Shown: positions 10,188 to 63,799 of the stretch, one piece after another | Layout: each line of letters begins with the position of its first letter | How positions within the stretch are numbered: position 1 is the first letter of the stretch | NCBI RefSeq assembly: GCF_001555965.1 | Contig: NZ_LSHX01000017.1 | Coordinates: forward strand, 1 to 64,000 | Source: Sphingomonas sp. CCH21-G11 | GTDB taxonomy: Bacteria > Pseudomonadota > Alphaproteobacteria > Sphingomonadales > Sphingomonadaceae | Length of the DNA: 64,000 nucleotides | Direction: 5' to 3' | Notes under the pieces: generated by a model | Told to the model about the DNA's origin: nothing | Databases searched by the model: none | The model's input: the letters and a program-made list of their open reading frames with translations, nothing else | Translations under genes and position numbers: made by a program

Positions 10188-10742
10188 TCAAAAGAGTTCG
10201 ACGTCGCCGCTCGATACGTCGTGGCGCGGCATGGGGAGGTGGGCGGGGGCAACGGCTTCGGCGACGACCCGGCAGCGGCTTTGGCCCGATGCAGGGCGAA
10301 AATCGACGCGGCGCGCACGCACTCCGCCAAGGTCGGCATGGACGAGCGCGATGCGTTCGCGTTCCAGAAACACTTTGGCGAACTGTGCATTCGCGGTGCC
10401 GATGCGCGCCATGCCGCTGTGCATGTTGGCGCCGCCATAAATCCGGGCGCGCAGTCCCGAACGTGTCGCACCATAGGCGAGCATTTCGTTGATCAGCACT
10501 TCCATCAGATAGACGCCGTAATGTTCGTCGACCGCCGCCGAAGCCTGCGAAGCCTTGGGCTCGCCAAGCAGGAAATGATTCATGCCGCCGACGCCCGCTT
10601 GGGCATCGAAAAGGCAGGTGGCGATGCAGCTGCCAAGCACAGTGGTGAGTTCGACGCGCGCGCTGTCGCTGACGCGTACCTGACCCTGCATGACGGTTAG
10701 GCGGGCCATTTTCGGGCAGGATTGGGTGGCGGTCATCAACAT
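10188..10742 (-). CDS. cheD: Chemoreceptor glutamine deamidase CheD
   Basis: CheD converts receptor glutamines to glutamates. The catalytic Cys is C39 in TTVLGSCIATCLFD and the catalytic His is H56 in GGMNHFLLG, as in characterised CheD proteins. The start is taken at 10742, with 10736 as an alternative. Length from there is 184 residues. The gene directly follows cheB with a 1-bp gap. Confidence 0.92.
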   Translation of the reverse strand: MLMTATQSCPKMARLTVMQGQVRVSDSARVELTTVLGSCIATCLFDAQAGVGGMNHFLLGEPKASQASAAVDEHYGVYLMEVLINEMLAYGATRSGLRARIYGGANMHSGMARIGTANAQFAKVFLERERIALVHADLGGVRARRVDFRPASGQSRCRVVAEAVAPAHLPMPRHDVSSGDVELF

Positions 10743-10743
10743 G

Positions 10744-44610: not shown

Positions 44611-44700
44611 GGATGGGTGGCCGAGTGGTTTAAGGCAGCGGTCTTGAAAACCGCCGTGGGTGCAAGCTCACCGTGGGTTCGAATCCCACCCCATCCGCCA
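44611..44700 (+). tRNA. tRNA-Ser (anticodon TGA)
   Basis: The 90-nt sequence begins GGATGGG and closes with CCCATCC, G and an encoded CCA. The anticodon loop CTTGAAA holds TGA. A long variable arm (CGTGGGTGCAAGCTCACCG) is typical of tRNA-Ser. The T arm is GGTTCGAATCCC. Confidence 0.96.
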
Positions 44701-46075: not shown

Positions 46076-47734
46076 TCAGAAGGACCGCACAAGCCTGAAA
46101 TTGATCTTCGGCGTGCGATCGCCGGTGTCGTAGCGTCGTCCGGTCAGCGGGGCGGCAACTTCAAGGCTTGCCCCGAATTTCGGGGTGATATCCGCCCTGA
46201 TCCCGCCGCCGGCCGAGGCGAGCGAACCGCTGCCGAAGCCGCTGCGCAGGTTCGTCACCCTGCCGCCGTCGACAAAGGCGTAAAGCTGGGCCCGTCGTGC
46301 GATGCCGAATGGGCGGTCGATCGCGTAGCGCAATTCGGCCAGGCCCATCGCGCCCTGATCGCCGCTGCGTTCCGACCAGTCATATCCGCGCAGGAAACCG
46401 GTGCCGCCCAGCCCGATTTCGGCTGCGATGAGCAGGGGTTGCGACGAAAGCTGGGTCAGCGCCGCCAGCCTCACGCTCGCATTGCCGCCAAGGTCGCGCG
46501 ACCAGTCGGTCCACAGGCTGACCGTGGTGTAGGTCGCATCCGCATCGCGCCGCGACGCCATCGGATCGCCGGCATCGGTCGCGCCGAAAAGGTCGAGGCC
46601 CTGCAACACGCTCGCGCTGATACGCAACCGGCCGCCGGCGATGTCGCGATGGCCATAGATCGTGCCGCGCGCGGTGGCCATGCGATCGTCGCGAACCAGC
46701 TGGCCGGCGCGTGACTGCATCAGGTTACGGACGCCGAATTCGCCTTCGAACCAAAGGCTTGTCGAGCGACGCCGCCACAGTGGATGAAGAACCGCACCGC
46801 CGACATACCAGCTATGGCTGCGGATCCGGAACGGCTCGAGGTAGGCACCGGGGCGCGCGCCCGATCCTGTCGCCGTCACCGACACTTCGGTCCCGCTGCG
46901 GTTGATGCGCTTTTCATAGCGGATCCGGCCGAACTGCAGCTCGTTCGGCTCGATCGCGGTTCCCGACCAGGTCAGCGTCAGCGAATCGTCGGTGGCCAGC
47001 AGCGCATTGAAATCGACGTCGAGCGTCAGCTGTTCGGGGCCGATCGGCCGGGTCCCTTCGTTTGCGAACGTAAGCCGCCCGGCGATCCGGTCACGGACGA
47101 CGCGCACGACCAGTATCCCTCGCCCGCCCTCACGCACGAACCGGCTGCTGCGAATCTGCACGCCGTCGATATCGCCGGCGATCAGCAACCGCCGTTCAAG
47201 CGCGCCGACATGCACCGGCGCGTCGCTGATCAGCGGGCTCAGCGCCGCGCGCACCGCCCGGTCCTCGGCACCGTCGAAGCGGATCTCCTCGATCCGGCCC
47301 TCGTCGACCTCGATGGTCAGCACGCCATTCTCGATCTGCTGGACGCCGATCCAGGCGGACGCGAACACCAGTCCCCGCGCACGGGCGCGTTCCGCGATGT
47401 CGGAAGCCAGCCGGGCAAGCGCGTCGGGGGTCAGCGTGCGCCCCACCCGCGTGGCGAGCAGGTCGGCGAAATCGGCCGGGGCCAGGCTGCGCAGCCCTTT
47501 TAGGGCGATCGCGCCCACCATCACCGCGCGACTTGACGGGGACGCCGCCGTTGCCGGCTGGTCGACATCGACCTGAACGGGTTCGCTTTCGGTGCGGGTG
47601 TCGGCCGGCGCGCGCTCCTCGCGCGTGGCGGGCGGCTGCACGCGGTCGAGCGCATTTTGTCCGAAAGCAGGGGCTCCGAACGGAAGCGCAACGAAAAGGG
47701 CGAGCGCGCAGAGGGTGTTGCGGATCGTGGACAT
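46076..47734 (-). CDS. ShlB/FhaC-type two-partner secretion outer-membrane protein
   Basis: The 552-residue protein has a signal peptide (LCALALFVALPFGAPAFG). Residues ~75-220 contain POTRA-type domains (RSLAPADFADLLATRVGRTLTPDALARLA). The remaining ~330 form a beta barrel rich in alternating strands, with the FhaC-like RGYDWSERSGDQGAMGLAELRYAID and the terminal strand PKINFRLVRSF ending in Phe. It should export a partner protein across the outer membrane. No classical TpsA with a TPS domain is adjacent. The divergent FecR-domain repeat protein, 133 bp away, is the plausible client by position. The start at 47734 is chosen before the signal peptide. Confidence 0.88.
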   Translation of the reverse strand: MSTIRNTLCALALFVALPFGAPAFGQNALDRVQPPATREERAPADTRTESEPVQVDVDQPATAASPSSRAVMVGAIALKGLRSLAPADFADLLATRVGRTLTPDALARLASDIAERARARGLVFASAWIGVQQIENGVLTIEVDEGRIEEIRFDGAEDRAVRAALSPLISDAPVHVGALERRLLIAGDIDGVQIRSSRFVREGGRGILVVRVVRDRIAGRLTFANEGTRPIGPEQLTLDVDFNALLATDDSLTLTWSGTAIEPNELQFGRIRYEKRINRSGTEVSVTATGSGARPGAYLEPFRIRSHSWYVGGAVLHPLWRRRSTSLWFEGEFGVRNLMQSRAGQLVRDDRMATARGTIYGHRDIAGGRLRISASVLQGLDLFGATDAGDPMASRRDADATYTTVSLWTDWSRDLGGNASVRLAALTQLSSQPLLIAAEIGLGGTGFLRGYDWSERSGDQGAMGLAELRYAIDRPFGIARRAQLYAFVDGGRVTNLRSGFGSGSLASAGGGIRADITPKFGASLEVAAPLTGRRYDTGDRTPKINFRLVRSF

Positions 47735-47867
47735 GGTCAACCTTCGCCGCCGCAATAGCGTGCCAAGCGTTACAACTTCCTCAAGAGATCAGTGCGTTAA
47801 CCAGGCATGAAAACATCCGCGAAAGCCTCGCCCGATAAATGGCAAACTCCATACAAAGGTTTTGACC

Positions 47868-49544
47868 ATGAATCGGTTCGCTCAGATCGCCGCAATTGCA
47901 TTCCTGATGTCCGCCAGCCCGGCGGCATTGGCCCAGGGCAACGGCTGGACCGTCAGCGAAGCATCCGGGCCGGTGACGATCCAGGACGCGGCCGGCAAGC
48001 ACGCGGCGAAACGCGGCACGCCGGTCGCCGAAGGTGCCACCGTCGCGACTGGTGCGGGCGGACGCGTCGTGGTGGTGCGCGGCAAGGATTTCATGACCGT
48101 CAACGCCAACAGCCGCGTGCGCATCCCGCAAGCGACGGCGGAGCGCGGCGTCGTCGACGTGCTGCAGGACTGGGGCAACGCGATCTTCCAGATCGAGAAG
48201 AAGCCCAATCCGCATTTCGGCGTGCGCACCCCCTATCTGGCCGCGGTGGTGAAGGGCACGACCTTCTCCATCACCGTCACCGACCAGGGATCGTCGCTTC
48301 AGGTCGTCGAAGGAGCCGTGGAAACCGCGACGAGCGACGGCGGCGCGCGCGAACTGATTCGTCCGGGTGTGGTGGCGATCGTGTCTGCCGCGGACCGGTA
48401 TCGACTGACCGTGCAGGGCCAGGATACGCGGACGATCGATTCGCCCCAGCGCAGTGCGCCGGGCGGGGCTGCGCCCACCCCGGCCGAGGCCGATGACGCC
48501 GCACAGATCGATTCCAACACCGACGGCCAGGTCGCTGTCACGACGCCCGCAAGCGTGGATAGCGCGGTCGAGATCGAGCAGGTTCAGATGATCACCAGCC
48601 CGATCACGGCCACCGCAGCGGATCTCGGGAAGGTGACCAATGGCCTGGTCGGCGGTTCGACCGCGATGCAGATCGCCAGTATCGAGGCAGCGACGATCCG
48701 CGCGGTGATTGCCGATGTGCGCGCCCCAACGATTGATGACGGTGTGGCCAACAGCCTGGACGGCAACGCCAGCGGCAATAACGGCGGCAACGGCGACGGA
48801 AGCGCTGCCGGCAATGACAACGGCAATGCCGGTGGCAATGACAACGGCAATGCCGGCGGGAACGGCAACGGCAACGCCGGCGGGAACGACAACGGCAACG
48901 CTGGCGGCAACGGCAACGGCAATGCCGGCGGGAACGACAACGGCAATGCTGGTGGCAACGACAACGGCAATGCTGGTGGCAACGGCAATGGCAATGCCGG
49001 CGGCAACGGCAACGGGAACGCCGGTGGGAACGACAATGGCAATGCCGGTGGCAACGGCAATGGCAATGCTGGTGGCAACGACAACGGCAATGCTGGCGGC
49101 AACGGCAATGACAATGCCGGTGGGAACGGCAATGGCAATGCCAGCGGGAACGGCAACGGCAATGCCGGCGGGAACGGCAACGGCAATGCCGGTGGCAACG
49201 ACAATGGCAACGCTGGCGGGAACGGCAATGGCAACGCCGGTGGGAACGGCAACGGCAATGGCAACGCCGGTGGGAACGACAACGGCAATGCTGGCGGAAA
49301 CGGCAATAGCAACGCCGGTGGCAACGGCAATGCCGGTGGGAACGGCAACGGCAATGCTGGCGGGAACGGCAACGGCAATGCTGGTGGCAATGACAACGGC
49401 AATGCCGGTGGGAACGGCAATGGCAACGCCGGTGGGAACGGCAACGGTAACGCCGGTGGCAACGACAACGGCGGCGCCGGCGAGAACGACAACGGTAACG
49501 CGGGCGGCAATGGCAACGGCGGCGGCAAGGGCAAGGACCGGTAA
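47868..49544 (+). CDS. Secreted FecR-domain protein with Gly/Asn octapeptide repeats
   Basis: The start at 47868 gives 558 residues. A signal peptide (MNRFAQIAAIAFLMSASPAALAQ) is followed by a FecR-type beta domain at about 25-150 (VRTPYLAAVVKGTTFSITV, LQVVEGAVET). A variable linker runs to about residue 300. The last 245 residues are an almost pure Gly/Asn/Ala/Asp repeat of unit G-G-N-D/G-N-G-N-A, about 29 copies. There is no anti-sigma membrane helix, so it is not a FecR signalling protein. It could be a surface or extracellular protein exported by the divergent ShlB-like pore, by position only. The repeat may fold as a glycine-rich solenoid or stay disordered. Confidence 0.85.
   Translation: MNRFAQIAAIAFLMSASPAALAQGNGWTVSEASGPVTIQDAAGKHAAKRGTPVAEGATVATGAGGRVVVVRGKDFMTVNANSRVRIPQATAERGVVDVLQDWGNAIFQIEKKPNPHFGVRTPYLAAVVKGTTFSITVTDQGSSLQVVEGAVETATSDGGARELIRPGVVAIVSAADRYRLTVQGQDTRTIDSPQRSAPGGAAPTPAEADDAAQIDSNTDGQVAVTTPASVDSAVEIEQVQMITSPITATAADLGKVTNGLVGGSTAMQIASIEAATIRAVIADVRAPTIDDGVANSLDGNASGNNGGNGDGSAAGNDNGNAGGNDNGNAGGNGNGNAGGNDNGNAGGNGNGNAGGNDNGNAGGNDNGNAGGNGNGNAGGNGNGNAGGNDNGNAGGNGNGNAGGNDNGNAGGNGNDNAGGNGNGNASGNGNGNAGGNGNGNAGGNDNGNAGGNGNGNAGGNGNGNGNAGGNDNGNAGGNGNSNAGGNGNAGGNGNGNAGGNGNGNAGGNDNGNAGGNGNGNAGGNGNGNAGGNDNGGAGENDNGNAGGNGNGGGKGKDR
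48807..49530 (+). repeat. 24-bp tandem repeat array coding Gly/Asn octapeptides
   Basis: About 29 copies of a 24-bp unit near GGCGGGAACGACAACGGCAATGCC (written here in shortened form) run head to tail. Copies differ mostly at third bases and in the Asp/Gly codon at position four. A few units are 6 or 10 codons long, which suggests slipped-strand changes that keep frame. The region is prone to copy-number change and to assembly error. Confidence 0.93.
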
Positions 49545-49584
49545 CCTCACACCGTCGCCCTGTTGACGCGCCGTTAGCACCCGG

Positions 49585-51969
49585 GTGCTACGATGCGCGC
49601 CGAAGGTTGGCACGCACTTGCACGAGAGATTGAACCATCACTGGCGGCTGGCCGCGGCGGCGTTGAGCTGTGCGCTCGCCCTCGCGACCGGCATTCTCGG
49701 GTGGGGGGTCGGCGTTGACCGGGTGATCCGGCAACTCAGCTGGCAGCTTCGCGCCCATCCCGCATCGGGCGAACTTCACATTGTCGAGATTGATGCACGC
49801 AGCATCGGGGCGATCGATCGCTGGCCCTGGCCGCGCGGCCAATATGCGCGCGCGGTCGATCGTCTTCACGCGGCTGGCGTAACCAACATAACGTTCGACG
49901 TCGATGTCTCCTCGGCCTCTGTACCGGCCGAAGATGCAGCCTTCGCCGCATCGATCGCCCGCGCCGACGGAAAGGTCGTCCTGCCGACCTTCAGCCAGCG
50001 GACCGGCAGCAATGCGGACAGCTGGACCGATTCGCTCCCGATCCCCGCCTTTCGGGCGCATGCCGCGCTTGCGGCAGTCACCGTCCAGCCGGACGCAGAC
50101 GGGCTGGTGCGCCGGATGTTGCTCGGCACGGTGACGGACGGCACGCCGCGCCCTTCCCTTTCCGCCATGATCGCGGGGGTCAACGGGTCGGCCGATACCG
50201 ATTTTCCGATCGACTTCGCGATCGAGCCGGGATCGATCCCCAGGCATAGTTTCATCGACATCCGTGACGGCCGCTTCGACCCCGCCACCCTTCGCGGCAA
50301 AAGTGTCGTCATCGGCGCGACCGCGGTCGAGCTGGGCGATCGTTACGCGGTGCCCAGGCATGGCGTCATCCCCGGCGTGGTGATCCAGGCGCTGGCGGCG
50401 GAAACGCTTCGCAACGGGCGCCCGCGCGAGGGCGGCTGGCCGCTTCCGCTGCTGGTCGGGCTGGGTTTGGGGGTCGCGATCCTCAATGCGCGTTCGCGTC
50501 GCACCCTGGCCGTGACAATTGTCGGCGGCCCGACCGTGCTGGTCGGCGCGGCCTTGCTCGTCGACGCGCGCCTCGACTGGATTTTCCCGCTTGCCCCCGC
50601 ACTGGTCGCAATCGCCTGTGCCGGGATTGCCACGCTTTGCATGCGCGCCGCCGCCGCTGCGCGCCGTCGCAGGCTGCACGATCCCGAAACAGGGCTGCCC
50701 AATCGTCATGCGCTGATCGACGCGCTCAAGACCTATCGGGGCGAAGGCGTGCTCACCGCCTATGTCGGCGATTTCGAAAAGATCGCGGCGGGCCTGGGCG
50801 GTGCGGCGACGGCAGAGCTGGTCCGGCGCGTTCGTGACCGGGTCGCGCTCGTGTCCCAGGGGGCGACCGTCTATCGTATCGAGGATCGGGTGCTCGCCTG
50901 GCGTTGTTACGACCGGACCGACATCGAACAGCGCGTGGCGACGCTGCGCACCACGATGCTCAGCCCGATCGATGTCGCCGGGCGCCGCGTCGACGTCACC
51001 CTCGCCATCGGTTTTGCCGAGGACGCGGGGGTGGCGCATGTCGATCGCACCGTTGCCCAGGCCGGCCTCGCCGCGGCACAGGCCTTTGCGCTTGGGACCG
51101 GGTGGTACGTCCACCAGTCCCAGGACGACGAGGCGATCGACCGCGAGCTGTCGCTGCTGAGCGAGCTGGACGAGGCGATCGAACGCGGCGAGATCCAGGT
51201 CGCCTATCAGCCGAAGCTTGACCTGCGCGAGGGCAGGATCGCGAGTGTCGAGGCGCTGGTGCGCTGGCAGCACCCGGTCCGCGGCTTCCTTCGCCCCGAC
51301 CTGTTCATCCCGCTCGCCGAGCAGAATGATCGCATCGCGAAGCTGACCCTGCACGTGCTTGCCCAGACGATCGACGACCTGCGCGCCTGGCGCGTTAAGG
51401 GCCATGCGATCAACGGTGCGGTCAACATCTCCGCCAAGCTGCTGAGTTCGGAAGAGTTCATCACCGCGTTGCGGGGGCTGATCGAACGCAGCGGAGTTGC
51501 GCCCGCCTCGCTCATTTTCGAAGTGACCGAATCGGCGACGATGAACGATCCCGATCGCGCGGTCGCCGCGCTGCAGTCGTTCCGCGCCATGGGCATTGCG
51601 ATCTCGATGGACGATTACGGCACCGGCCAGTCGACGCTGACCTATCTCAAGCAGCTGCCGCTCAATGAATTGAAGATCGATCGCAGCTTCATTCAGTTCG
51701 CCCACCAGAATCGCAGCGACGGGGTGCTCGTCCGCTCGACGATCAACCTCGCGCACGAACTGGGGCTCAAGGTCGTGGCCGAAGGCGTCGAGGACAGCGC
51801 GTGCCTCGACTTCCTGAAGTCGATCGGCTGCGACATGGCGCAGGGCTATTTCATCGGCCGGCCGATGCCCGCCGGCGACCTGCTTCAGCGCCTGGCAAGT
51901 GACGCAGCCGGAGTGCCCGTCGAACCGGCGGCGGCTGCTGCCCCGCTGGCCCTGAAACGCGCGGGATAA
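49585..51969 (+). CDS. CHASE2-degenerate GGDEF-EAL membrane protein (c-di-GMP phosphodiesterase candidate)
   Basis: About 794 residues if started at GTG 49585. TTG at 49618 (GAAGG 11 bases before it) or 49630 are also possible, and there is no ATG near the N-terminus. One membrane helix at the N-terminus, a CHASE2 sensor (IVEIDARSIGAIDRWPWPRGQYA, GKSVVIGATAVELGDRYAVP) and three C-proximal membrane helices precede the cytosolic part. The GGDEF domain has lost its motif (YRIEDRVLAW at that place). The EAL domain looks active: EALVRW, VNISAKLL, FEVTESATM, DDYGTGQSTL, LKIDRSF and EGVED. It should hydrolyse c-di-GMP in response to an outside signal. It is 40 bp downstream of the FecR repeat gene. 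Confidence 0.88.
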   Translation: MLRCAPKVGTHLHERLNHHWRLAAAALSCALALATGILGWGVGVDRVIRQLSWQLRAHPASGELHIVEIDARSIGAIDRWPWPRGQYARAVDRLHAAGVTNITFDVDVSSASVPAEDAAFAASIARADGKVVLPTFSQRTGSNADSWTDSLPIPAFRAHAALAAVTVQPDADGLVRRMLLGTVTDGTPRPSLSAMIAGVNGSADTDFPIDFAIEPGSIPRHSFIDIRDGRFDPATLRGKSVVIGATAVELGDRYAVPRHGVIPGVVIQALAAETLRNGRPREGGWPLPLLVGLGLGVAILNARSRRTLAVTIVGGPTVLVGAALLVDARLDWIFPLAPALVAIACAGIATLCMRAAAAARRRRLHDPETGLPNRHALIDALKTYRGEGVLTAYVGDFEKIAAGLGGAATAELVRRVRDRVALVSQGATVYRIEDRVLAWRCYDRTDIEQRVATLRTTMLSPIDVAGRRVDVTLAIGFAEDAGVAHVDRTVAQAGLAAAQAFALGTGWYVHQSQDDEAIDRELSLLSELDEAIERGEIQVAYQPKLDLREGRIASVEALVRWQHPVRGFLRPDLFIPLAEQNDRIAKLTLHVLAQTIDDLRAWRVKGHAINGAVNISAKLLSSEEFITALRGLIERSGVAPASLIFEVTESATMNDPDRAVAALQSFRAMGIAISMDDYGTGQSTLTYLKQLPLNELKIDRSFIQFAHQNRSDGVLVRSTINLAHELGLKVVAEGVEDSACLDFLKSIGCDMAQGYFIGRPMPAGDLLQRLASDAAGVPVEPAAAAAPLALKRAG

Positions 51970-52035: not shown

Positions 52036-52162
52036 ATTCGTCCCCGCCGCAACCGTGCAGTTACGGTGTCGGAGCGAACGAGACGACCGGTCTCCATCGA
52101 AACCGGATCGCCTCCCTCCTGAATGTCGGGTCGCAGACGCACATTCAGAGGAAGGACACATC

Positions 52163-52579
52163 ATGCAAGGCAAGAACATCGAGGGAATGGCCAACCTGAT
52201 CCGGCAGGCCAAGGAAGACCCCAAATTCTTCCACAATCTCGTCTGGAAGACCGAAGAGACGCTCGGATCGGTCGGCTTCCTCTCGCGTGAGGAAAAGGCC
52301 GCGATCCTGCGCATCAACCCCGAGGACCTGGTCGTCGGCCTGGCGACCGGGCGCTTCTCGCCCGGCAGCCTGGCGGAGAATTGCGGCGCCAGCTGCGGCG
52401 GCAGCTGCGGGGGAAGCTGCGGCGTGAGCTGCGGTGGCAGCTGCGGCGTGAGCTGCGGTGTGAGCTGCGCGACGAGCAGCCTGCGCACCGATCCCGGCAG
52501 CCTGGTGATCAACCCGGCCGAAATCGGCGAGCGGGTCCAGGCGGAGATCAACCAGCGGTTCGCCAGCTTCATGCGCTGA
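52163..52579 (+). CDS. Cysteine-repeat peptide, putative RiPP (lanthipeptide-like) precursor
   Basis: The start at 52163 follows GAGGAAGG and gives 138 residues. The first ~73 residues look like a helical RiPP leader with an acidic LIRQAKEDPKFFHNLV stretch and FLSREEKAAILRI, similar in pattern to NHLP/Franean1_4349-type leaders (my recollection, not a search). Then come eight Cys spaced exactly four apart, with unit C-G-x-S, at about 74-102. A 36-residue tail follows (DPGSLVINPAEIGERVQAEINQRF). The synthetase gene starts 57 bp downstream. Ser residues just before the Cys could be dehydrated and joined to Cys as lanthionines. A metal-binding Cys array without modification is the main alternative. 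Confidence 0.75.
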   Translation: MQGKNIEGMANLIRQAKEDPKFFHNLVWKTEETLGSVGFLSREEKAAILRINPEDLVVGLATGRFSPGSLAENCGASCGGSCGGSCGVSCGGSCGVSCGVSCATSSLRTDPGSLVINPAEIGERVQAEINQRFASFMR

Positions 52580-52636
52580 CCGCCGGCATCCGGGTGTCCG
52601 GCGGGCACCCGGATGTCATGACGAGGGACTGAAAAG

Positions 52637-55327
52637 ATGCAGCCGACCGACTATCTGGCAGAATTGACGTCAAGGGGCCTTGAGGTCCGCGACACCGGCG
52701 TCTGGGCGGCGGTGGGCAGGCCCGACCGCGATTTCGGCTGGAAGCTGCACATCTCGTCGATCCAGGTGGAGGCACCGACGGTGATCGCGCGCATCCTGCC
52801 GGTGCTGCGCGCGCACGACACGCCGTTCAAGATCGCCCGCGATGCACGCATCCTCGGCGAGCTGAACGAGGGGACGTTCGGCGCGACCCAGATCGGAAAG
52901 TTCGCGACGATCTATCCCGCGTCCGACACGCTGGCGCTGACGCTGGCCCGGGCGCTCCTGCCCCTGCTTTCCGGCCTGTCGGGGCCCCGGATCGTCACTG
53001 ACCTGCCGCTCGGCGAAACGCTGTATGCGCGTTTCGGGCAGTTCGACCCGGCATTCACGCGCGACCGGCTCGGCAATCTGGCCGCCGGGTCGGCGCCTGC
53101 GGGGGCCGAATATCGCGTCCCTTTCGTCGCGCCCGATGGCATTGCCAATCCGTTCGCGGCCTGGCCCGCCGCCGGGGGATCGACCTCCGCGCGCTCATTG
53201 GCACCCGCCGCGACAACCGACGCGTCGCTCGCCTCGCGCCTCATCGGTCCCGGCTTCCTCCTGCTCGATTCGCTGAGCGCGCACTCCAAGGGATCGGTGT
53301 TCCTCGCCGCGGACATGCGGTCCGCCGAGCAATGCGGCCTGATCGTGCTGAAGGAAGGCCGACGCCATTGCATGTCGGACCCCAAGGGACGCGACATGTG
53401 GGACCGCCTGACGCATCAGCATGCGCTCGCCGCGTGGCTCAGCGACGATGTCGCCATTCCGCGGCACCATATGGTGTTCGATCGCGACGACAGCCTGTTC
53501 CTCGCAATCGATCATGTCGAGGGTCGCGACTTTTCCGATCGACCCGCCCGCCGCTATGATCGCGCCGATATCGCGCATCGCGAACAGCTGATCGGCGACC
53601 TGATCGGGCTCGCCGCGACGCTCGGCGACCTGCATCGCCGCGGGGTCGTCCACCGCGACCTGTCGCCCCGCAACGTCCGCGTCGGTGCGGATGGCCGGAC
53701 CTGGCTCCTCGACCTCGAAATGGCGGCTCCCGTCGGCGAGCGCGACGCGCTGTTCATGCAGGGGACGATGGGCTTCATCTCGCCCGAGCAACAGGCCGGC
53801 GGCGCGGCCGCGTTTGCCGACGATCTGTACGCGGTCGGCGCGCTGATCGCCAATGCGATCACCGGGTTCGATCCCAGGCGCATGTCGCTGGCGGCGGATG
53901 CGGATCTTGCCGGTCGCCTTGCGATGCTGAGCGGTGCGCCGTCGGCGCTGGTCGCGCTGGCGGTCGATCTGCTCGCCGCCGATCCGGCCGACCGCCCGGC
54001 GATTGCCGAGGTCGAGGCCCGCCTGCGCCGGATCGATGCGCGAACGGTCGCGATCAGCTCGCTCGCCGACCGCGCGGACGACGCCCTGCTCGACGGTGCG
54101 TTGAGCTGGCTGGTCGCGGGCGGTCTGCGCGACGATCGCACGGGATTGCCGCTCTCCCCCGAACTCCAGGCACTGGGCCATGACGCCAGCCTGTCGGTGC
54201 CGCAGGCTTATCGGCTGTTCCGCAGCGCGAACCGCGGCGTCGCGGGCGTGCTCTATGGCGCGGCGCGGCTGGTGCGGCTGGGCGCGCGCGCCGCGCAGGT
54301 CGGCGATTTCGCCGAACGCGCGGTGGACTGGCTGCTCGCGCATGCGGCGACGCCCGACGATCAGATGCCCGGCCTGCATTTTGGCGAGGCGGGGGTCGCG
54401 CTCGCCTTTGTCGAGGCGGTCGACGCCGGCCTCATCGATCGCGGCCGCTGGTTCGAGGCCTATCTGGACCAGGTGTTTTCCGGCCCGCTCGACTGGCCCG
54501 ATCTGACGCATGGCGCAGCCGGCCAGGGATTGGCGGCGCTCCAGGCCGCGTATGGCGCACGCCTGCCGGGGCTGGCGCGCTATGCCGACCAGTGCGCGCG
54601 CTATCTGATCGATCGTCAGCGCGCCGACGGCAGCTGGGCATGGCCCGACGGGGTCAGCGGGATGGAGGGCACCGTCTATACCGGGTTCGCACATGGCGTC
54701 GCCGGAATCGTCCACTTCCTGGCGGTGCACGCCCGCGCCCGGGGGGACCGCGACGCCATGGCGGCGGCACGGGCCGGTGGGGAATGGCTGGTTCGACAGG
54801 CGCGACGTAACGGAGCGCACAGCTGGTGGCCGCGTGCGCAGGACCCCGACGATGCGTGGCACTGGTGGTGCCATGGCGGGCCGGGGATCGCGTTGGCGCT
54901 GCTTGCGCTCTACGCGCTCGATCGCGACGCGCGCTGGGCAGACCTTGCCCGCGATGCGCTGGGTGCGCACGCGCTCAGCCCCTGTCATCCCAATCTCAGC
55001 CAGTGCCACGGCCTTGCCGGCCTGGGCGAGATTTACCTGGAGGCCGCGCGGGTCCTCGACGACCCGCAGTGGCTCGCACGCGCGCGGCGCATTTCCGCAA
55101 CGCTGATCGGCCTGCAGCGCCGCGACGCGCACGGGATCTCCTGGATGGTCGAGAACCCGCACATCCCCACCGCCGACCTGATGATCGGCAGCGCCGGCGT
55201 CGCGCATTTCCTGGCGCGGCTGGCGCGTGCGGACGTCCTTGCCGTCGGCATGCCGCTGGGCGTCGACCTGACGGCGGACCTGAACCTCAAGCCCCAAGCG
55301 ATGAAGGGAGCGTTGGCATGCAACTGA
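52637..55327 (+). CDS. Class III/IV lanthipeptide synthetase (LanKC/LanL-like)
   Basis: The 896-residue protein has the three domains of LanKC/LanL enzymes. Residues 1-170 match the N-terminal lyase-like region (FGWKLHISSI, PFKIARD, GKFATIYPA, LPLGETLYARFGQF). Residues ~215-470 are a Ser/Thr kinase with K239, H339-R340-D341 to N346 (HRDLSPRN) and D359 (DLE in place of DFG). Residues ~530-870 are a LanC-type cyclase with likely zinc ligands C745 (WWCHGG), C790-H791 (QCHGLAG) and a conserved H686 (FAHG). Such enzymes phosphorylate and eliminate Ser/Thr, then add Cys thiols to make thioether rings. The adjacent Cys-repeat peptide is the obvious substrate. The intact zinc set fits class IV better than class III. 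Confidence 0.88.
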   Translation: MQPTDYLAELTSRGLEVRDTGVWAAVGRPDRDFGWKLHISSIQVEAPTVIARILPVLRAHDTPFKIARDARILGELNEGTFGATQIGKFATIYPASDTLALTLARALLPLLSGLSGPRIVTDLPLGETLYARFGQFDPAFTRDRLGNLAAGSAPAGAEYRVPFVAPDGIANPFAAWPAAGGSTSARSLAPAATTDASLASRLIGPGFLLLDSLSAHSKGSVFLAADMRSAEQCGLIVLKEGRRHCMSDPKGRDMWDRLTHQHALAAWLSDDVAIPRHHMVFDRDDSLFLAIDHVEGRDFSDRPARRYDRADIAHREQLIGDLIGLAATLGDLHRRGVVHRDLSPRNVRVGADGRTWLLDLEMAAPVGERDALFMQGTMGFISPEQQAGGAAAFADDLYAVGALIANAITGFDPRRMSLAADADLAGRLAMLSGAPSALVALAVDLLAADPADRPAIAEVEARLRRIDARTVAISSLADRADDALLDGALSWLVAGGLRDDRTGLPLSPELQALGHDASLSVPQAYRLFRSANRGVAGVLYGAARLVRLGARAAQVGDFAERAVDWLLAHAATPDDQMPGLHFGEAGVALAFVEAVDAGLIDRGRWFEAYLDQVFSGPLDWPDLTHGAAGQGLAALQAAYGARLPGLARYADQCARYLIDRQRADGSWAWPDGVSGMEGTVYTGFAHGVAGIVHFLAVHARARGDRDAMAAARAGGEWLVRQARRNGAHSWWPRAQDPDDAWHWWCHGGPGIALALLALYALDRDARWADLARDALGAHALSPCHPNLSQCHGLAGLGEIYLEAARVLDDPQWLARARRISATLIGLQRRDAHGISWMVENPHIPTADLMIGSAGVAHFLARLARADVLAVGMPLGVDLTADLNLKPQAMKGALACN

Positions 55328-56253
55328 TGACGACCATGGCCCACCCGCGCGGTCTTGCGCCGCGTCCCCCTGCGGATCGCCGGCTGGCCGACGCCCGGCG
55401 TGCGTTTCTCAAGCACGATGTCACGACCGCACCGGTCGATGCAGCCCGCGATTTCAGCAGCACTTACCTGATGAAACTCGCCACGTCGCTGCCACTGGCC
55501 GATGTCACCGCGATCATCGCCGCGGAGGAGGTTCGCGAAAGCGGCCTGGTGGCTGTCCGCAAGGGGCTGATGGTGGAGGCCGGCGACCTCTTTGCGCGCG
55601 CGGAGGCGATCGCGTCCGCGCCGGAGGTGTCGATACATGCCCAGATCGCGTCCGCCTCGTTCCAGCTGCCGGCGGAGGCGTATCTTGCCTACCGCACCGG
55701 CGATCTTCAGGGCGCGATCAACCGCCTGCTCGCCGCCATCCGCCTGTGCTGCCGTCTCGAGCGCGAATTCGGTCACGACATGGGGTTTCGTTGCCTGCAT
55801 CTCGTGCGCAACGTCATCCGCACCTACAGCTATTCCGTTCCGGCCCAGGTGACGCTGGATCAGGTGCTGACGCTGCTGCGCGCGGCCGCCGACCCGTGCG
55901 CGGAATGGACGCTCGCCATCCCCGTCACGTGGCGGACCCCGGTCGCCCTGACCGATGCCCAGCGCACCGCGCTGATGGACGAGGCGCTGATGAACCTTGC
56001 GATCCCCGAGGTTGATCTGCGCGCGTGCGAAGGGCCTTCGATCGGCCCGGCGGATACCCATCCCGATTTGGTCGCCGGGCTGCACTGGATCCGCGCGTTG
56101 ATCGCCCTGCGGCGCGGCAACGACGCCGACTTTTCGCGTCACGCCGCGCGCTTCCTGGAAATGGACCGGCCGAGGCTGGCGCACGCCGCCAGGCTGTTGC
56201 TCGGCGCGGTCGACGATCAACTCGGCTCGCGATCGGCGCGCGCGGATGCGTGA
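55318..56253 (+). CDS. Helical protein of unknown function in the lanthipeptide-like operon
   Basis: The gene overlaps the synthetase by 10 bp and is preceded by AAGGGAG, so it is translationally coupled. The 311-residue product is predicted mainly helical, with segments such as LFARAEAIASA, EAYLAYRTGDLQGAINRLLAAIRLC and AGLHWIRALIALRRGNDADFSRHAARFLEMD that recall tetratricopeptide pairs. No catalytic motif, signal or membrane helix is seen. It may bind the precursor or the synthetase, but no family was recognised. Confidence 0.65.
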   Translation: MQLMTTMAHPRGLAPRPPADRRLADARRAFLKHDVTTAPVDAARDFSSTYLMKLATSLPLADVTAIIAAEEVRESGLVAVRKGLMVEAGDLFARAEAIASAPEVSIHAQIASASFQLPAEAYLAYRTGDLQGAINRLLAAIRLCCRLEREFGHDMGFRCLHLVRNVIRTYSYSVPAQVTLDQVLTLLRAAADPCAEWTLAIPVTWRTPVALTDAQRTALMDEALMNLAIPEVDLRACEGPSIGPADTHPDLVAGLHWIRALIALRRGNDADFSRHAARFLEMDRPRLAHAARLLLGAVDDQLGSRSARADA

Positions 56254-56449
56254 CGGCCGTGCCGCACGCCGACGGCATGTCTCCGGCGGAAATCGTCCGG
56301 GACCGGGGCGCCGGGGCCGGCTGCCCCCGCAATTTGCGGTTGTTCGGGGTTTGCACTTGCCTTCACCGGCCGCGTTACCGCAGGGTTGCGCGGGGGCGGA
56401 GCAGCGTGCCTTGTTCCAAGGCCGGGAGTCCGTGCCGCGTGAGGGCGAT

Positions 56450-58066
56450 ATGGGCACCAGCGCGCCAGGCGAGACACCACCGGCGGAGCCCGAGGTCGCC
56501 GTTGAGCCGGAATATCGCGCATTCTTGAGCTACAGCCACAGCGACGCGCCGATCGCGCGCGCGATCCATCGCTGGCTGGAAGGGTATCGCGTGCCCCGGC
56601 ATCTGGTCGGCCGTTCGACCGCGCGTGGAGTCGCGCCGCGCCGCCTGACGCCGATCTTCATGGATCGCAGCGAGCTCGCCGCGTCCGCCAGCCTGAGCGG
56701 TGCGGTGGACGAGGCGCTGGCGGCGTCCGCCTGCCTGATCGTGCTCTGCTCGCCGGCCGCGCGCGAATCTGCCTGGGTGGACCTGGAGATCCGGCGATTC
56801 CGCCAGCTGCATCCCGATCGCCCCGTCCTCGCCGCGTTGGTCAGGGGAACGCCGCAAACCGCCTTTCCGCCGGGCATCTGCCAGCCGCGGTCGTTTGGCG
56901 CCGTCGATGAACCCGCGGCGGCCGACTTCACGCGCCATGGCGACGGCCGTCTCCTCGCCTATCTGAAGCTGGTCGCCGGGGTCATCGGCGTGCCGCTCGA
57001 CCTGCTGGTCCAGCGGCACGTCCAGCGGCGGCTCCGCCGCGTGGCGATCGCCACGGCGCTGGCCACGCTGTCGGTGCTGGTTCTGGCGGTGGCGCTGATC
57101 ATGGCCATCCGCGCCCAGCGCGAGGCGGAGCAGCAGCGCGAACAGGCGGAACAGCTGATCGAATTCATGCTGACGGACCTTCGCGGCCGATTGCGCGGCG
57201 TGGGCCGCCTCGACGTGCTCGACGTCGTCAATCGCCGCGCCATGGCCTATTATGCGGCGCAGGGCGACCTGGCCGCACTCCCGACCGGCTCGCTCGAGCG
57301 CCGCGCGCGCGTGCTGCACGCGATGGGCGAGGACGAGCAGCGATCGGGCGCGTTCGCCACCGCTGCCGCCAAGTTCGCCGAAGCGCATCAGGCGACCGCC
57401 GCGCTGCTCGCCGCCGCGCCCGACGATCCCGAGCGCCTCTATGCGCATGCCCAAAGCGAGTTCTGGCTCGGCTATGTCGCCTTCATGCGCAAGGCGCGCC
57501 CGGCGGCGTCGGCGCATTTCGCACGATACAAGACGCTGGCGTTGCGGCTGGTGGCGGCCGATCGCAACAACCCTGCCTATCGGCGCGAACTTGCCTATGC
57601 GCACGGCAATCTCTGTTCGGTGGAGGTCGAGGATCAACGCACCCTCCCCGCCGCCCTGCAAAGCTGCGCCAGTGCGCTGGCGACGATGGCCCGCCTTTCC
57701 GCGGCTGCGCCTCACGATACCGCGCTGCGGCTCGATCTCGCCAACCGGCACGCCTGGATGGCGCAGGCGCTGGAGGCGAACGGCCAGATCACGTCGGCGC
57801 TGGCGCAGCGCCACCGCCAGATCGCGATCCTCGACCGGCTGGTTGCGGGCGATCCGCGCAACGCCCGCATCCGCCAGGACGCGGCGCTCGCGCGTTTCTC
57901 GCTGGCCCAGATCCTGCGCAAGTCCGGCGCGGAAGCGCGCGCGGTCGAAATGGCGGGCACCGCGCATGCGGCAATGGCGGCGCTCCAGCGCTCCGATCCC
58001 GCCAATCGCGACTGGAAGACCTGGAACGCCAGAATCGAGCAGCAATTTCCCTCAAATGAAAGGTGA
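56450..58066 (+). CDS. TIR-domain membrane protein with C-terminal helical repeats
   Basis: The start at 56450 follows GAGGG and gives 538 residues. A longer in-frame start at 56246 is less likely. Residues ~22-145 form a TIR domain (YRAFLSYSHSDAPIARAIHRWLE, PIFMDRSELAAS, LIVLCSPAARESAWVDLEI). E113 in the WVxxE position corresponds to the catalytic Glu of NAD-cleaving TIR proteins such as SARM1. A single membrane helix lies at 198-220, then a coiled coil (QREAEQQREQAEQ) and ~280 residues of TPR-like helices. It may hydrolyse NAD+ or act as an adapter. The family with this layout is common in proteobacteria and functionally unknown. Confidence 0.8.
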   Translation: MGTSAPGETPPAEPEVAVEPEYRAFLSYSHSDAPIARAIHRWLEGYRVPRHLVGRSTARGVAPRRLTPIFMDRSELAASASLSGAVDEALAASACLIVLCSPAARESAWVDLEIRRFRQLHPDRPVLAALVRGTPQTAFPPGICQPRSFGAVDEPAAADFTRHGDGRLLAYLKLVAGVIGVPLDLLVQRHVQRRLRRVAIATALATLSVLVLAVALIMAIRAQREAEQQREQAEQLIEFMLTDLRGRLRGVGRLDVLDVVNRRAMAYYAAQGDLAALPTGSLERRARVLHAMGEDEQRSGAFATAAAKFAEAHQATAALLAAAPDDPERLYAHAQSEFWLGYVAFMRKARPAASAHFARYKTLALRLVAADRNNPAYRRELAYAHGNLCSVEVEDQRTLPAALQSCASALATMARLSAAAPHDTALRLDLANRHAWMAQALEANGQITSALAQRHRQIAILDRLVAGDPRNARIRQDAALARFSLAQILRKSGAEARAVEMAGTAHAAMAALQRSDPANRDWKTWNARIEQQFPSNER

Positions 58067-58068
58067 CG

Positions 58069-58563
58069 ATGATGTGCACGACCATTCCCACGCACGTTCC
58101 GCTCAACACGCGGGCCACGGTGTCCGACGAGGTGAAGGACGTGATCGTCTTCACCGTCGGCCTTGCGGCGGACAATGGCGAGGTGCTGCTGACGCTTCAG
58201 CAACAGGATCTGAAGGTGCCCGACATCATCGCCATCGAACGCGATTCGATCGTCGAGGTTCGGCTCGAGGGCCGGCAGATCTTCTTTTCGAAGCAGTTCG
58301 ACGCCGTTACCTTCAAGTCGGACCAGCGTTCGCTTTACGGCGGCATCGAATATCTCGATTATGACGAGAAGCTCGATCGCTATCGGCGCGCGCGCTTCAC
58401 GGCTCGGTTCAACCGTGGCGGCAAGTTCGATACGCGTCACGGCTTCAACATCAATCTCGACCTCCTGCAGCGGGGGAAGGATCGCAAGAATGTGCGTTTC
58501 GTGCCCCTGACGGTCGATCCCGACATCACCAATCCGCCGCCGCGCATGCACAATTTCCGCTGA
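58069..58563 (+). CDS. Small protein of unknown function between TIR and TRAF-type genes
   Basis: The ATG at 58069 (or 58072) is preceded by AAAGG and starts 2 bp after the TIR gene stop. The 164 residues are predicted rich in beta strands (DVIVFTVGLAADNGEVLLTLQQ, DSIVEVRLEGRQIFF, RYRRARFTARFNRGGKFDTRHGFNINL). No signal peptide, Cys or membrane helix is evident. It was not recognised. Co-transcription with the TIR gene suggests a shared function. Confidence 0.65.
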   Translation: MMCTTIPTHVPLNTRATVSDEVKDVIVFTVGLAADNGEVLLTLQQQDLKVPDIIAIERDSIVEVRLEGRQIFFSKQFDAVTFKSDQRSLYGGIEYLDYDEKLDRYRRARFTARFNRGGKFDTRHGFNINLDLLQRGKDRKNVRFVPLTVDPDITNPPPRMHNFR

Positions 58564-58616
58564 TGGTCAGTCTCATGCGCCTTTCGCTCGCACCATCCTG
58601 CCCGGGTCGGCTCTAG

Positions 58617-60101
58617 ATGGATCGGCTCGACCTGCGCCGGATCGTCCGGGTCGCGCGGTCCGGCGATACGCTGCGTGCCTGGCGCATGTTCGAGCAGGCG
58701 GCGGGCAGCCATGCCGAAGACGATTACGACCTGCTGAACCTCCGGGGGCGACTGCTGAAGGACCGGGCGGTCGCCGCCCAGGGCGATGATCGTTCGCGCC
58801 TGCTGGCGGAATCGCGCGACGCCTACCTTTCCGCTGCCCGGCGTCGTCGCGCGACCTATCCGCTGATCAATGCGGCCGCGATCGAGCGGCTCGCCGGCAA
58901 TTTCGCGCGTGCGCGCGAGTTCGCCGCCGCCACGATCGCGTTGCTCGACCAGGGCGATCACGAGCCGGACACCGCTTATTGGCTGGCCGCCACCCGGGCG
59001 GAGGCCGCGCTGCACACCGGACCGGTCGAGACGGCCGCCGACCTGCTGCGCGACGCGATCGCGCTCGCGCCCGACGCGTGGGAGGATCACGCCTCCACGC
59101 TGCGCCAGTTCAGGCTGCTGCTCGGCTGCGTCGGTGCGGACGACCGCTGGCTGGAACAGCTGGCTCCACCCGCCGCGCTTCATTTCAGCGGGTTGATCCA
59201 CTTTGACCCCACGATCGGCGGATCCGGCCGCGACCTTGCCGATCGGCTCGACCGGCTGCGCTGCGGCTTTGCCTATGGCGCGCTCGCGGCGGGCGCCGAC
59301 ATCGTCATCGCCGAGCTGCTGGTGGATCGCGGTGCCGAACTGCATCTGGTCCTGCCGGCGCGTCCCGACATTTTCCGGCGTCAATCGGTGATGCCGTTCG
59401 GCGATCATTGGGGCGAGCGGTATGACCGCCTGCTCGCGCGGAGTGCCTCGGTGGAGGTGGTTGCACAGGGGCAGGACGTGTCGCTCGCGGCCGTCGAGTT
59501 CGCGGCACAGGTCGCGATGGGCTCGGCGATCTGTCAGGCACGCGCGCTCGAAGCGCAGGCGGTCGCGCTTCGGTTGGTCGATCAGGCTGCGGGCGACGCC
59601 CAGTCATCGGCGGCGAGCGACCAGGCGTGGGAACGGCTGGGATTGCCGCTCATCCGCGTTGCCGCACCCCGATCGAGCGCGCCGGTCGCGACGATTCCGC
59701 ACGCCGAAATCACGGCAATCGTTGCCGCCCCGCCCGCCCGTGGCACAACCGGAGCTGCCCCCGACATTTTCAGCCGCATCGCCCCCGAAGGCCATCATCG
59801 TGCCGCCGATCCTGCCGCCGCCGCCAGGGTCGCGCTCGACGCGCTGGCAAGCGCGCCCGCGCTTCGCCTGGGCCTGACCGCGGGTCCGGTGATCGGCAGC
59901 GACGACACCGCCCGGCTGGTCGAGCTGGCGGGGCTGATCGCGTCGGCGGCCGCGCCGGGCCAGCTGCTTGCCTCGCGCGCGGTCGGGCTGGCGCTGCTGC
60001 TGCTCGCGCCCGAGCTGCGCTGCGAATCCGACCAGGAACTGTCGACCGCCTATGGCGAAATGCCTGTCTGGACGGTAGCCGACGTGGGGCGCGACGCGTA
60101 G
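58617..60101 (+). CDS. TRAFs-binding/TPR protein with SLOG-like and cyclase-like parts
   Basis: The 494-residue protein begins with helical repeats that match the TRAFs-binding (DUF4071-type) pattern, for example ARRRRATYPLINAAAIERLAG near residues 75-95. The middle (LHFSGLIHFDP, then GFAYGALAAGADIVIAELLVDRG and LPARPDIFRRQSV) resembles SLOG-type nucleotide-binding segments of bacterial signalling proteins. The last ~90 residues (LGLTAGPVIGSDDTARLVELAGLIASAA) recall a degenerate class III nucleotidyl cyclase. All three are inferences from pattern. In other bacteria such proteins occur with TIR and other effector domains. It is on the same strand as the TIR gene and convergent with the Crp/Fnr gene. 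Confidence 0.65.
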   Translation: MDRLDLRRIVRVARSGDTLRAWRMFEQAAGSHAEDDYDLLNLRGRLLKDRAVAAQGDDRSRLLAESRDAYLSAARRRRATYPLINAAAIERLAGNFARAREFAAATIALLDQGDHEPDTAYWLAATRAEAALHTGPVETAADLLRDAIALAPDAWEDHASTLRQFRLLLGCVGADDRWLEQLAPPAALHFSGLIHFDPTIGGSGRDLADRLDRLRCGFAYGALAAGADIVIAELLVDRGAELHLVLPARPDIFRRQSVMPFGDHWGERYDRLLARSASVEVVAQGQDVSLAAVEFAAQVAMGSAICQARALEAQAVALRLVDQAAGDAQSSAASDQAWERLGLPLIRVAAPRSSAPVATIPHAEITAIVAAPPARGTTGAAPDIFSRIAPEGHHRAADPAAAARVALDALASAPALRLGLTAGPVIGSDDTARLVELAGLIASAAAPGQLLASRAVGLALLLLAPELRCESDQELSTAYGEMPVWTVADVGRDA

Positions 60102-61783: not shown

Positions 61784-62875
61784 TCAGCCGAGCGGCGCGT
61801 GCGCGATGCGCGGCAATACGTGACGTGCGAACAGGTCGGCTTCGGCGGCGTGTGGATAGCCGGACAGGATGAAGGCATCGATGCCTTCCGCGCGATAGGC
61901 GTTCAGCTTGGCGAGAACCTGATCCGGATCGCCGACGATCGCCGCACCGCAGCCTGAACGCGCCCGGCCGATGCCGGTCCACAGATTGTCCTCGACATAA
62001 CCGTCGCTGGCGCTGGCGGCTTCGCGGAGCTCCGCCTGGCGCGCGACGCCCGCAGACTGGCTGTCGAGCGAGCGTGCACGGATCGCGGCCCCGGTTTCGG
62101 CATCGAGTCGCGACAGCAGCCGGTCGGCCGCGGCGCGCGCCTCGGCCTCGGACTCCCGCACCACGACATGGACGCGATAGCCGAACTTGAGCGTGCGGCC
62201 GTGGCGCGCGGCCCGCTCGCGCAGATCGGCGATGATCGCGCGGACGCCGGCCATCGAATCCGGCCACATCAGATAGACGTCGCACCCCTGCGCGGCGGCT
62301 TCGCGCGCGGCGGGTGACAGGCCCCCGAAATAGAGCGGCGGGCATTTCCCGGTCAGCGTGGTGACCCCCGGTGGCGCCAGATCGAGCTTCCAGAAATCGC
62401 CGTCGAACTTCAAATGCTCGCCGTTGAGCAATGTGCGCAGGATGTGCATCGCCTCGACCGTGCGCTGGTAGCGCGGCGCGCTGTCCAGCGTCTCGCCCGG
62501 GAGGTCGCTGGAGATGATGTTGACGGTCAGCCGCGGCAGCCCGCCGCCGGTCAGCCCGAGCATCCGGTCGAGCGTCGCGATCTGGCGGGCCAGCTGCGGC
62601 GGCCAGCTCTCGCCGATCCGGACCGCCATCAGCAAACGGATGCGCCGGGTCAGCGCGGCGATGCCCGCGGCGAATGCGGTGGTGTCGATGCCGAGCGCAT
62701 AGCCCGACGGCAGCAGGATATTGTCGAAGCCGCCGCTTTCGGCCTGCAGCACGATGTCGCGGCAATGTTCCCAGCTCGACTTCAGCCGGGGATCGGGCAC
62801 GCCCAGAAATTCATAATCGTCGTCGCACAGCGCCGAGAACCAGCTGATCTCACACGGCTGTTCGGTTCCGTTCAT
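61784..62875 (-). CDS. LLM-class flavin-dependent monooxygenase (SsuD-like)
   Basis: The 363-residue TIM-barrel protein belongs to the bacterial luciferase-like family. The N-terminus EISWFSALC, LLPSGYALGIDT and LTVNIISSDLPGE match alkanesulfonate monooxygenase SsuD and related sulfone or sulfonate enzymes, which release sulfite using reduced FMN. The substrate is not certain. No ssuABC transporter genes are in view. The start overlaps the aldo/keto reductase stop by 4 bp, so they form one operon. Confidence 0.85.
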   Translation of the reverse strand: MNGTEQPCEISWFSALCDDDYEFLGVPDPRLKSSWEHCRDIVLQAESGGFDNILLPSGYALGIDTTAFAAGIAALTRRIRLLMAVRIGESWPPQLARQIATLDRMLGLTGGGLPRLTVNIISSDLPGETLDSAPRYQRTVEAMHILRTLLNGEHLKFDGDFWKLDLAPPGVTTLTGKCPPLYFGGLSPAAREAAAQGCDVYLMWPDSMAGVRAIIADLRERAARHGRTLKFGYRVHVVVRESEAEARAAADRLLSRLDAETGAAIRARSLDSQSAGVARQAELREAASASDGYVEDNLWTGIGRARSGCGAAIVGDPDQVLAKLNAYRAEGIDAFILSGYPHAAEADLFARHVLPRIAHAPLG

Positions 62876-63768
62876 GGCAGGCGCTCCCCTGTCCCGGCCT
62901 GCATCACCGCATACCATTGGTCGCGGGTCCATTCGACCTTGTAGGCGTCGGCCGATGCGCGGATGCGGTCGGGTTGCTGCGATCCGACGATCGGGATGAT
63001 CCGCGCTGGATGCGCCATCACCCAGGCAAGCGCCGCCGCCGTCACGTCGACGCCATGGGCCGCACCCTGTTCGGCCAGCAGCCCATGCGCGGGATGATCG
63101 GGGTCGAGCAGCCGACCGCCGGCGAGCGGCGACCACGCGAGCACCGCCATGTCGCGTGCCATCGCCTGGTCGAGCGTGCCGTCATAGAGCGGCGCGACAC
63201 GCAGCGGCGAGAATTCGGGCTGGGTCGTGACGATTGGCAGGTCGAGGAACGCCTGCAGCGCGTCGACCTCCGCGGGGCTGTAATTGGACACGCCGATCGC
63301 GCGGACCTTGCCGGCGGCGACCATCGCGGCGAGCGCGCGGGCCACCTCCTGCGGGTGGGTCATGAAATCGCGGCGGTGGATCTGGTAGAGGTCGATCACG
63401 TCGATCCCCAGCCGCGCCAGCGAGGCGTCGACGGCTGCCGCCAGATAGGCCGCGCTCGAATCATAGGGGCGCGGCGGGGTGATGCCGCCCTTGGTCGCGA
63501 TGACCATGCGGTCGCGCAGCGCCGGTGCGTCGGCCAGCACCCGGCCGAACAGCGCCTCCGACGAGCCGAAGCCCTCCGGCGTGCCATAGCCGTAAATGTC
63601 GGCGGTATCGAACAGCGTGATGCCCGCGTCCAGCGCGGCATCGACACGCGCGCGCGCCGCCGCCACGTCGGTGCCGGTGAAGCGCCACATCCCCCACGCG
63701 ATCGGGGATACGGTCAGTTCGCTCTTGCCCAGCGGGTGCGGATCGGGAGAAAGGCGGAGGCTCGTCAT
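62872..63768 (-). CDS. Aldo/keto reductase (YdhF-like)
   Basis: The NADPH-dependent enzyme has 298 residues from ATG 63768. A GTG 18 bp upstream is possible. Catalytic residues of the family are visible: Asp in LFDTADIYGYG (tyrosine near 66), Lys in VIATKGGI and His in IDLYQIHRRD. The C-terminal IIPIVGSQQPDRIRAS is the cofactor clamp. Its substrate is unknown. It lies 31 bp from the divergent oxidoreductase gene. Confidence 0.88.
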   Translation of the reverse strand: MTSLRLSPDPHPLGKSELTVSPIAWGMWRFTGTDVAAARARVDAALDAGITLFDTADIYGYGTPEGFGSSEALFGRVLADAPALRDRMVIATKGGITPPRPYDSSAAYLAAAVDASLARLGIDVIDLYQIHRRDFMTHPQEVARALAAMVAAGKVRAIGVSNYSPAEVDALQAFLDLPIVTTQPEFSPLRVAPLYDGTLDQAMARDMAVLAWSPLAGGRLLDPDHPAHGLLAEQGAAHGVDVTAAALAWVMAHPARIIPIVGSQQPDRIRASADAYKVEWTRDQWYAVMQAGTGERLP

Positions 63769-63799
63769 GGCGACGATCTTTGGCACAGGGATTTGACGG

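Follow-up and report, generated by a model that had tools for sequence, protein, structure and literature searches.

A candidate lanthipeptide family with a (Cys-x-x-Ser/Thr)n core and its own clade of lanthionine synthetases

What would be made from a small protein of Sphingomonas sp. CCH21-G11 in which cysteine recurs at every fourth residue and whose gene is followed by one for a lanthionine synthetase, and in which direction would its rings close? The stretch of DNA analysed here, referred to as the window, comprises 64,000 nucleotides (positions 1 to 64,000 of contig NZ_LSHX01000017.1). The precursor peptide gene (52163..52579, + strand) encodes a 138 aa product consisting of three parts on the same strand, namely an Os1348/NHLP-like leader (residues 1-73, 52163..52381) with five predicted helices within residues 4-62, a core of eight consecutive Cys-x-x-Ser units (residues 74-105, 52382..52477), delimited by sequence and register counts, and a C-terminal follower (residues 106-138 plus stop codon, 52478..52579), delimited by alignment. 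The cysteines occupy positions 74, 78, 82, 86, 90, 94, 98 and 102; seven of the eight are directly preceded by Ser, and 36 residues follow the last. The first-pass annotation of this DNA had described a 138-residue product with eight Cys at exact four-residue spacing, seven of them after Ser, and a 36-residue tail, all of which is borne out by the translated reading frame; its unit Cys-Gly-x-Ser is likewise correct. In 200,000 shuffles of the 34-residue core eight cysteines never fell in step, the best value of seven being reached six times, and the spacing of the window core is thus beyond composition. At the DNA level the core is a 12-nt tandem repeat (52382-52469), and the array has therefore probably grown by unit duplication; since the ladder is conserved in relatives, we argue that it has also been kept.

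The gene downstream (52637..55327, + strand) encodes an 896 aa LanL-like lanthionine synthetase, so the complete enzyme that the first-pass annotation had placed next to the precursor is present. It comprises, all on the + strand, a phospho-Ser/Thr lyase domain of the RamC_N type (52664..53164; PF25816, E 1.6e-28; motifs GWKLH, FKIARD and GKFATIY), a kinase domain (53459..54013; PF00069, E 3.1e-10; VLKEGR, HRDLSPRN and DLE) and a LanC cyclase domain (54233..55234; PF05147, E 7.5e-28) with the complete zinc ligands in WWCHG and CHG. The union of lyase, kinase and LanC in one protein, the criterion for LanL, is found in the window enzyme and is split in one of its relatives (L001). Against the LanL model NF038150 the window synthetase scores 473 bits and that of L003 551 bits, both below the curated cut-off of 650; against the LanKC model NF038151 the window enzyme reaches 275.8 bits, below the cut-off of 575. 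Judged by these model scores and the intact zinc ligands, the window synthetase is class IV-like and not LanKC, the type of gene named in the first-pass annotation. Its best PDB match is 8car (E 1.3e-48), listed as a Ser/Thr protein kinase, which we take to be SgbL. In a tree of 15 synthetases, the comparators being a choice from the matches of one plasmid search and not a survey, the four ladder synthetases form one branch (100/99) apart from the sampled LanL and LanKC enzymes, while the forks joining this branch to LanL are not resolved with these 15 rows. The cyclase zinc ligands Cys, Cys and His, in WWCHG and CHG, as well as the lyase motifs and the HRD loop are present in all four ladder synthetases when the two genes of L001 are joined.

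Loci of relatives were sought with the peptide, not the enzyme, as query. In each of the four fetched true-relative loci (L001, L003, L020 and L023) a LanL-like synthetase lies directly downstream of the precursor, as the first-pass annotation had expected of homologues; the four represent three independent cases, as L020 and L023 are near-identical. In L001, from a Microbacteriaceae MAG, a 15-unit precursor is followed by a two-gene synthetase and then by a homologue of the third gene of the window. The lyase-kinase and LanC halves are encoded by genes overlapping at GTGA (10525-13196), apparently a natural split, although a sequencing frameshift would also produce it. On a Haematobacter massiliensis plasmid (L003) a precursor with two five-unit ladders precedes a 912-aa synthetase. 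L020, which stems from the same order sample as L001, and L023 carry two tandem precursors followed by the synthetase, which is complete in L023, whereas in L020 the contig stops within it. A five-unit block of the first L020 precursor recurs in nearly the same form in that of L003, with TTNLTD after it in both cases, across two phyla. Precursor and synthetase are very probably substrate and enzyme.

Searched against 5.8 billion proteins, the precursor retrieved 69 at E<=0.01, itself included; a profile search listed 81 at E<=0.001, three of which (P0078-P0080) are proteins of another kind. Leader and follower are conserved in the alignments (40 and 74 sequences), with FFHxLVW and PEDLVVGLA as leader motifs, whereas the length of the ladder varies. 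In the consensus the follower ends in FSRFxR. An end motif occurs in 67 of 75 members, and of the eight without it five have a near variant; the internal core with a conserved follower noted at first pass is supported. P0061 and P0064 have a different tail, and P0077 ends soon after the ladder. The longest unbroken ladder ranges from 5 to 15 Cys in 77 proteins, lengths of 15 (34 proteins) and 8 (20 proteins) being the commonest. PF27846 is precomputed for most relatives, and the peptide family may already have this Pfam entry.

Among sampled genomes the precursor is shown to be rare: besides G001, one of 396 genomes of the order sample and none of 396 of the phylum sample have a match at E<=1e-8. 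Viral contigs yielded no relatives. Plasmid searches with P0001, P0044, the L003 precursor and the window synthetase each led to the Haematobacter plasmid only, and P0062 gave no match. Of two loci from a scan of genome contigs one, L002, was rejected as a false match, an open reading frame without a ladder. Likewise rejected were four weak-match genomes in the family sample of G001 (L005-L008), in which three Cys-repetitive frames without a leader were seen and, in L007, no Cys-repetitive open frame. In P0081 (122 aa) a Cys-x-x-Ser/Thr ladder follows a leader of the double-glycine type that weakly matches a class I lanthipeptide leader (E 0.014), and the ladder may have arisen here independently. 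On a Salipiger plasmid (L013:3388-5548) a 523-aa lyase-kinase protein, too short for LanC and without the zinc motif, is preceded by a Thr-rich small protein with a weakly Os1348-like leader (E 0.025), which may be a peptide that undergoes dehydration without subsequent cyclisation.

The register of the ladder was counted in 77 proteins; 78 of the 81 were examined after removal of P0078-P0080, and P0040 was left uncounted as its ladder is too short. Ser or Thr stands at +3 of 906 of 909 ladder Cys and at -1 of 841, and in 75 of the 77 peptides every ladder Cys has Ser/Thr at +3. The emphasis of the first-pass annotation on Ser before Cys is hence only partly upheld: the junction is real but the weaker of the two regularities. 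In P0040, whose ladder is broken by an insertion, +3 is occupied at four of four Cys and -1 at two. At the ladder ends, counted in 75 proteins without P0040, P0066 (apparently the end of a broken ladder) and P0081 (whose leader differs), the last Cys is followed by Ser/Thr at +3 in 75/75; dropping P0066 and P0081 favours this count, which is 75/77 with both retained. After thinning to <60% flank identity the value is 37/37. Over the eight positions before the first Cys, however, Ser/Thr reaches at most 14/75, or 9/37 after thinning, in both cases at -5, and position -1 is Ser/Thr in 9/75. As +3 is kept at the last Cys and no conserved Ser/Thr precedes the first, the unit begins with Cys and ends with Ser/Thr, and these counts make (Cys-x-x-Ser/Thr)n a better description of the ladder than Ser-Cys pairs. 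This closed register also holds in divergent twin-ladder precursors; in those of L003 and the first of L020, with ten Cys each, +3 is occupied at ten and -1 at eight. Since the array looks grown by 12-nt duplication, the register could in part reflect a founder effect.

The closed register speaks for ring closure within the individual unit, the Cys preceding the residue that is dehydrated. Within-unit closure would also be the most economical, because with closed ends it uses every Cys and every unit Ser. In the proposed pathway the helical leader would bring the precursor to the adjacent synthetase, the kinase would phosphorylate the Ser of each Cys-x-x-Ser unit, the lyase would remove the phosphate to leave dehydroalanine, and the zinc cyclase would add the Cys thiol to it, each Cys closing onto the dehydroalanine three residues later within its own unit. 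The result would be a tandem series of eight small lanthionine rings, or of fifteen in many relatives, with Cys always the N-terminal partner, and the product a stiff rod between leader and follower. As no protease or exporter was recognised beside the pair, the rod may remain fused to its flanks or be released by general proteases. The sequence, the register, its conservation, the gene pairing and the intact motifs are observed; dehydration and ring formation, like the direction of the rings and the shape and fate of the product, are proposed here from them. The best reading is a new family of lanthipeptides whose core is (Cys-x-x-Ser/Thr)n and whose synthetases form a clade of their own. Taken as a whole, including the ring direction, a lanthipeptide pathway of a new family with Cys-N-terminal rings within each unit seems to us somewhat probable.

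The strongest competitor, unlikely but to be taken seriously, is closure in the canonical direction, from each Ser to the next-but-one Cys (+5). This would give about six interlocked rings, an unpaired first Cys or two and a last Ser that is dehydrated or intact. In LanC cyclisation the acceptor residue usually lies on the N-terminal side of the Cys (PMC13060382), and Ser/Thr directly before Cys is common in the family, as counted above. In the window precursor Ser69 lies five residues before Cys74, the first Cys, so a canonical +5 ring is possible there as well. For the family, however, the ladder ends speak otherwise, as a Ser/Thr at +3 is available to the last Cys in 75/75 and the first lacks a conserved upstream partner. 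One paralogue counts against a firm choice of ring direction: the second L020 precursor mixes +3 and +4 spacing, with Ser/Thr at +3 of 6 of its 11 Cys, at +3 or +4 of 10 and at -1 of 9. Together with P0076, which has Ser at +4 in one unit, it fits a conserved Ser/Thr-Cys junction as well or better. This second tandem precursor (6508-6939) is at the same time a natural test of ring-size tolerance.

Far less probable than canonical closure is a metallothionein-like or redox scaffold, whose Cys would be free, metal-bound or joined in disulfides while the synthetase acts on little of the ladder. Regular Cys spacing taken alone would suit metal clusters or disulfides; such a scaffold needs only Cys, though, and not the Ser/Thr found at +3 almost without exception, and in all four further true-relative loci a lanthionine synthetase comes next. 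A similarly small chance is given to other chemistry on the ladder, either by a radical SAM enzyme (TIGR04117) or of the heterocycloanthracin type. The TIGR04117 model matches the window precursor with E 1e-6 and 22 of 40 members at E<=0.1, and the heterocycloanthracin model matches 3 of 40, but the window score of 28.7 bits lies below the cut-off of 50 and the leader alone is unmatched. Moreover, a Pfam scan of 30 window proteins revealed no radical SAM, YcaO or ABC-transporter domain. These 30 proteins are 28 of the 46 picked open reading frames plus two others, the 18 unscanned frames lying below 36.1 kb or at 62872-63786; ordinary peptidases occur among the scanned proteins, none of them beside the precursor-synthetase pair. 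That the ladder is an unmodified repeat protein born of slippage in GC-rich DNA, as its 12-nt repeat might suggest, with the synthetase a chance neighbour, is hardly credible in the face of a leader and follower conserved in both alignments, a recurring synthetase neighbour and a hairpin or inverted repeat in the precursor-synthetase gap of both the window and L003.

The helical, leader-like part recognised at first pass is also predicted to be helical by AlphaFold2, with block-mean pLDDT values of 91-94 for residues 11-50 and 82 for residues 51-60. In the ladder and its edges (residues 67-115) pLDDT is below 50, and helices modelled there therefore mean little. With NF038399, the Os1348 model of the NHLP clan, 19 of 40 members give a match at E<=0.1 (the strongest at 2.6e-5), below cut-off wherever bit scores are known; the window leader itself scores 12.9 bits against a cut-off of 40. 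The leader-model searches proposed in the first-pass annotation thus found the clan, albeit weakly. Foldseek places the Os1348 structure 6lk7 at rank 1 for the leader model with a non-significant E of 2.5, and VIA ranks borosin methyltransferases above it. A link to the Os1348/NHLP-clan leaders is likely, not proven.

Two putative RNA elements flank the precursor on the + strand. In the 5' untranslated region, just before the precursor ribosome-binding site, an inverted repeat with 8-bp perfect arms is located (52119..52148), and the segment 52110-52165 folds at -22.1 kcal/mol (z -3.91), a value equalled by none of 200 shuffles. Between precursor and synthetase lies a hairpin with a 15-bp stem (52585..52617; -29.6 kcal/mol, z -2.71), which 2 of 200 shuffles equal. 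The corresponding gap of L003 contains an 11-bp inverted repeat (8442-8471), while in L001 the hairpin is absent and the genes overlap. The hairpin perhaps sets the ratio of precursor to synthetase in favour of the precursor.

A third gene (55318..56253, + strand), whose start overlaps the synthetase stop, encodes a TPR-like helical protein with 98% identity to one from Sphingomonas sp. CCH18-H6. Its structural model, calculated from five sequences, is helical with a mean pLDDT of 76, and TPR matches have non-significant E values. The homologue in L001, directly after the synthetase, is 27% identical; after the L003 synthetase no third gene was seen, the next annotated gene encoding an aminotransferase. 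Among 396 genomes the gene was found in G001 only. The precursor homologue P0002 and the third-gene homologue P0083 are each assigned to a contig of 32,677 bases, probably the same one. The TPR-like model suggests a possible binding partner for the product.

Further downstream on the same strand (56246-60101) genes for a TIR-domain protein, a predicted nucleotide synthetase (PF20301 pNTSase1) and a TPR-S protein resemble a conflict-system cassette, and PADLOC gives a weak SAVED-TIR match for the TIR protein (E 1.3e-6). They were rejected as part of the system, none being seen among the open reading frames of the L001 stretch, whose contig stops some 1.2 kb beyond the third gene, or in the annotation of the L003 stretch; searches on the TIR, pNTSase1 and TPR-S domains gave nothing usable. 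Upstream (46076-51969) an ShlB-type secretion protein (- strand), a FecR protein with a long Asn-Gly-rich repeat tail and a CHASE2-EAL protein are encoded, and a tRNA-Ser gene (44611-44700) lies about 7.5 kb before the precursor. The region from this tRNA gene to about 60.8 kb could be a genomic island.

We tentatively propose, at slightly less than even chances, that a separate kinase-lyase-cyclase clade makes thioether rods of up to fifteen near-identical four-residue rings, Cys N-terminal in each, between leader and follower. If this is true, the number of bridges would exceed the seven given for known lanthipeptides in PMC11251773, where eight are predicted in one case, and a whole family would be built on the less usual ring direction. 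A cyclase able to build the same ring as many as fifteen times over would provide stapled rods that are genetically encoded and of natural origin, and would allow a clear study of what determines ring direction and processivity in LanC enzymes. Such a family is easy to miss, because a large 2020 lanthipeptide survey discarded candidate precursors of >120 residues (PMC7268733), a length that 76 of the 77 counted proteins exceed. A tandem Cys-x-x-Ser ring-ladder pattern was not found in the open-access literature searched, outside which most subscription papers lie.

Among known systems, rings with Cys N-terminal to the dehydro residue are described for ProcM-clade enzymes (PMC13060382) and for SyncM (PMC9872173), and thus occur in the class II prochlorosins, synechococsins and nostolysamides. 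Prochlorosin leaders belong to the Nif11 family, which is related to the Os1348/NHLP-type leader (PMC7268733). The enzymes of that clade are LanM proteins, unlike the window synthetase, the prochlorosin-like group has 2-3 Cys (PMC11251773), and the descriptions compared contain no long tandem unit. Os1348 itself measures 85 aa, and the word lanthi- is absent from the text of its paper (PMC7726476). With the Cys-x-x-x radical SAM targets of TIGR04117 the window precursor shares, as judged by family name and match, a four-residue Cys ladder, though with the sub-threshold score and scanned surroundings described above. Class III LanKC enzymes (SapB and labionin types) have the lyase-kinase-cyclase architecture in common with the ladder synthetases, but none of four annotated rows matched the zinc motif scan and their usual substrate motif is SxxSx(2-5)C (PMC11251773). 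In the motif scan an HRD-type loop appeared in all four ladder synthetases but not in the annotated comparators, two rows of LanL and four of LanKC; the cyclase-less Salipiger row has WRD. Class IV LanL (8car), like the window synthetase, combines RamC_N lyase, kinase and LanC in a single chain and carries the zinc ligands; the ALQxL-type precursors, however, have 39 aa and two Cys, whereas the window precursor has 138 aa and an internal core of eight units.
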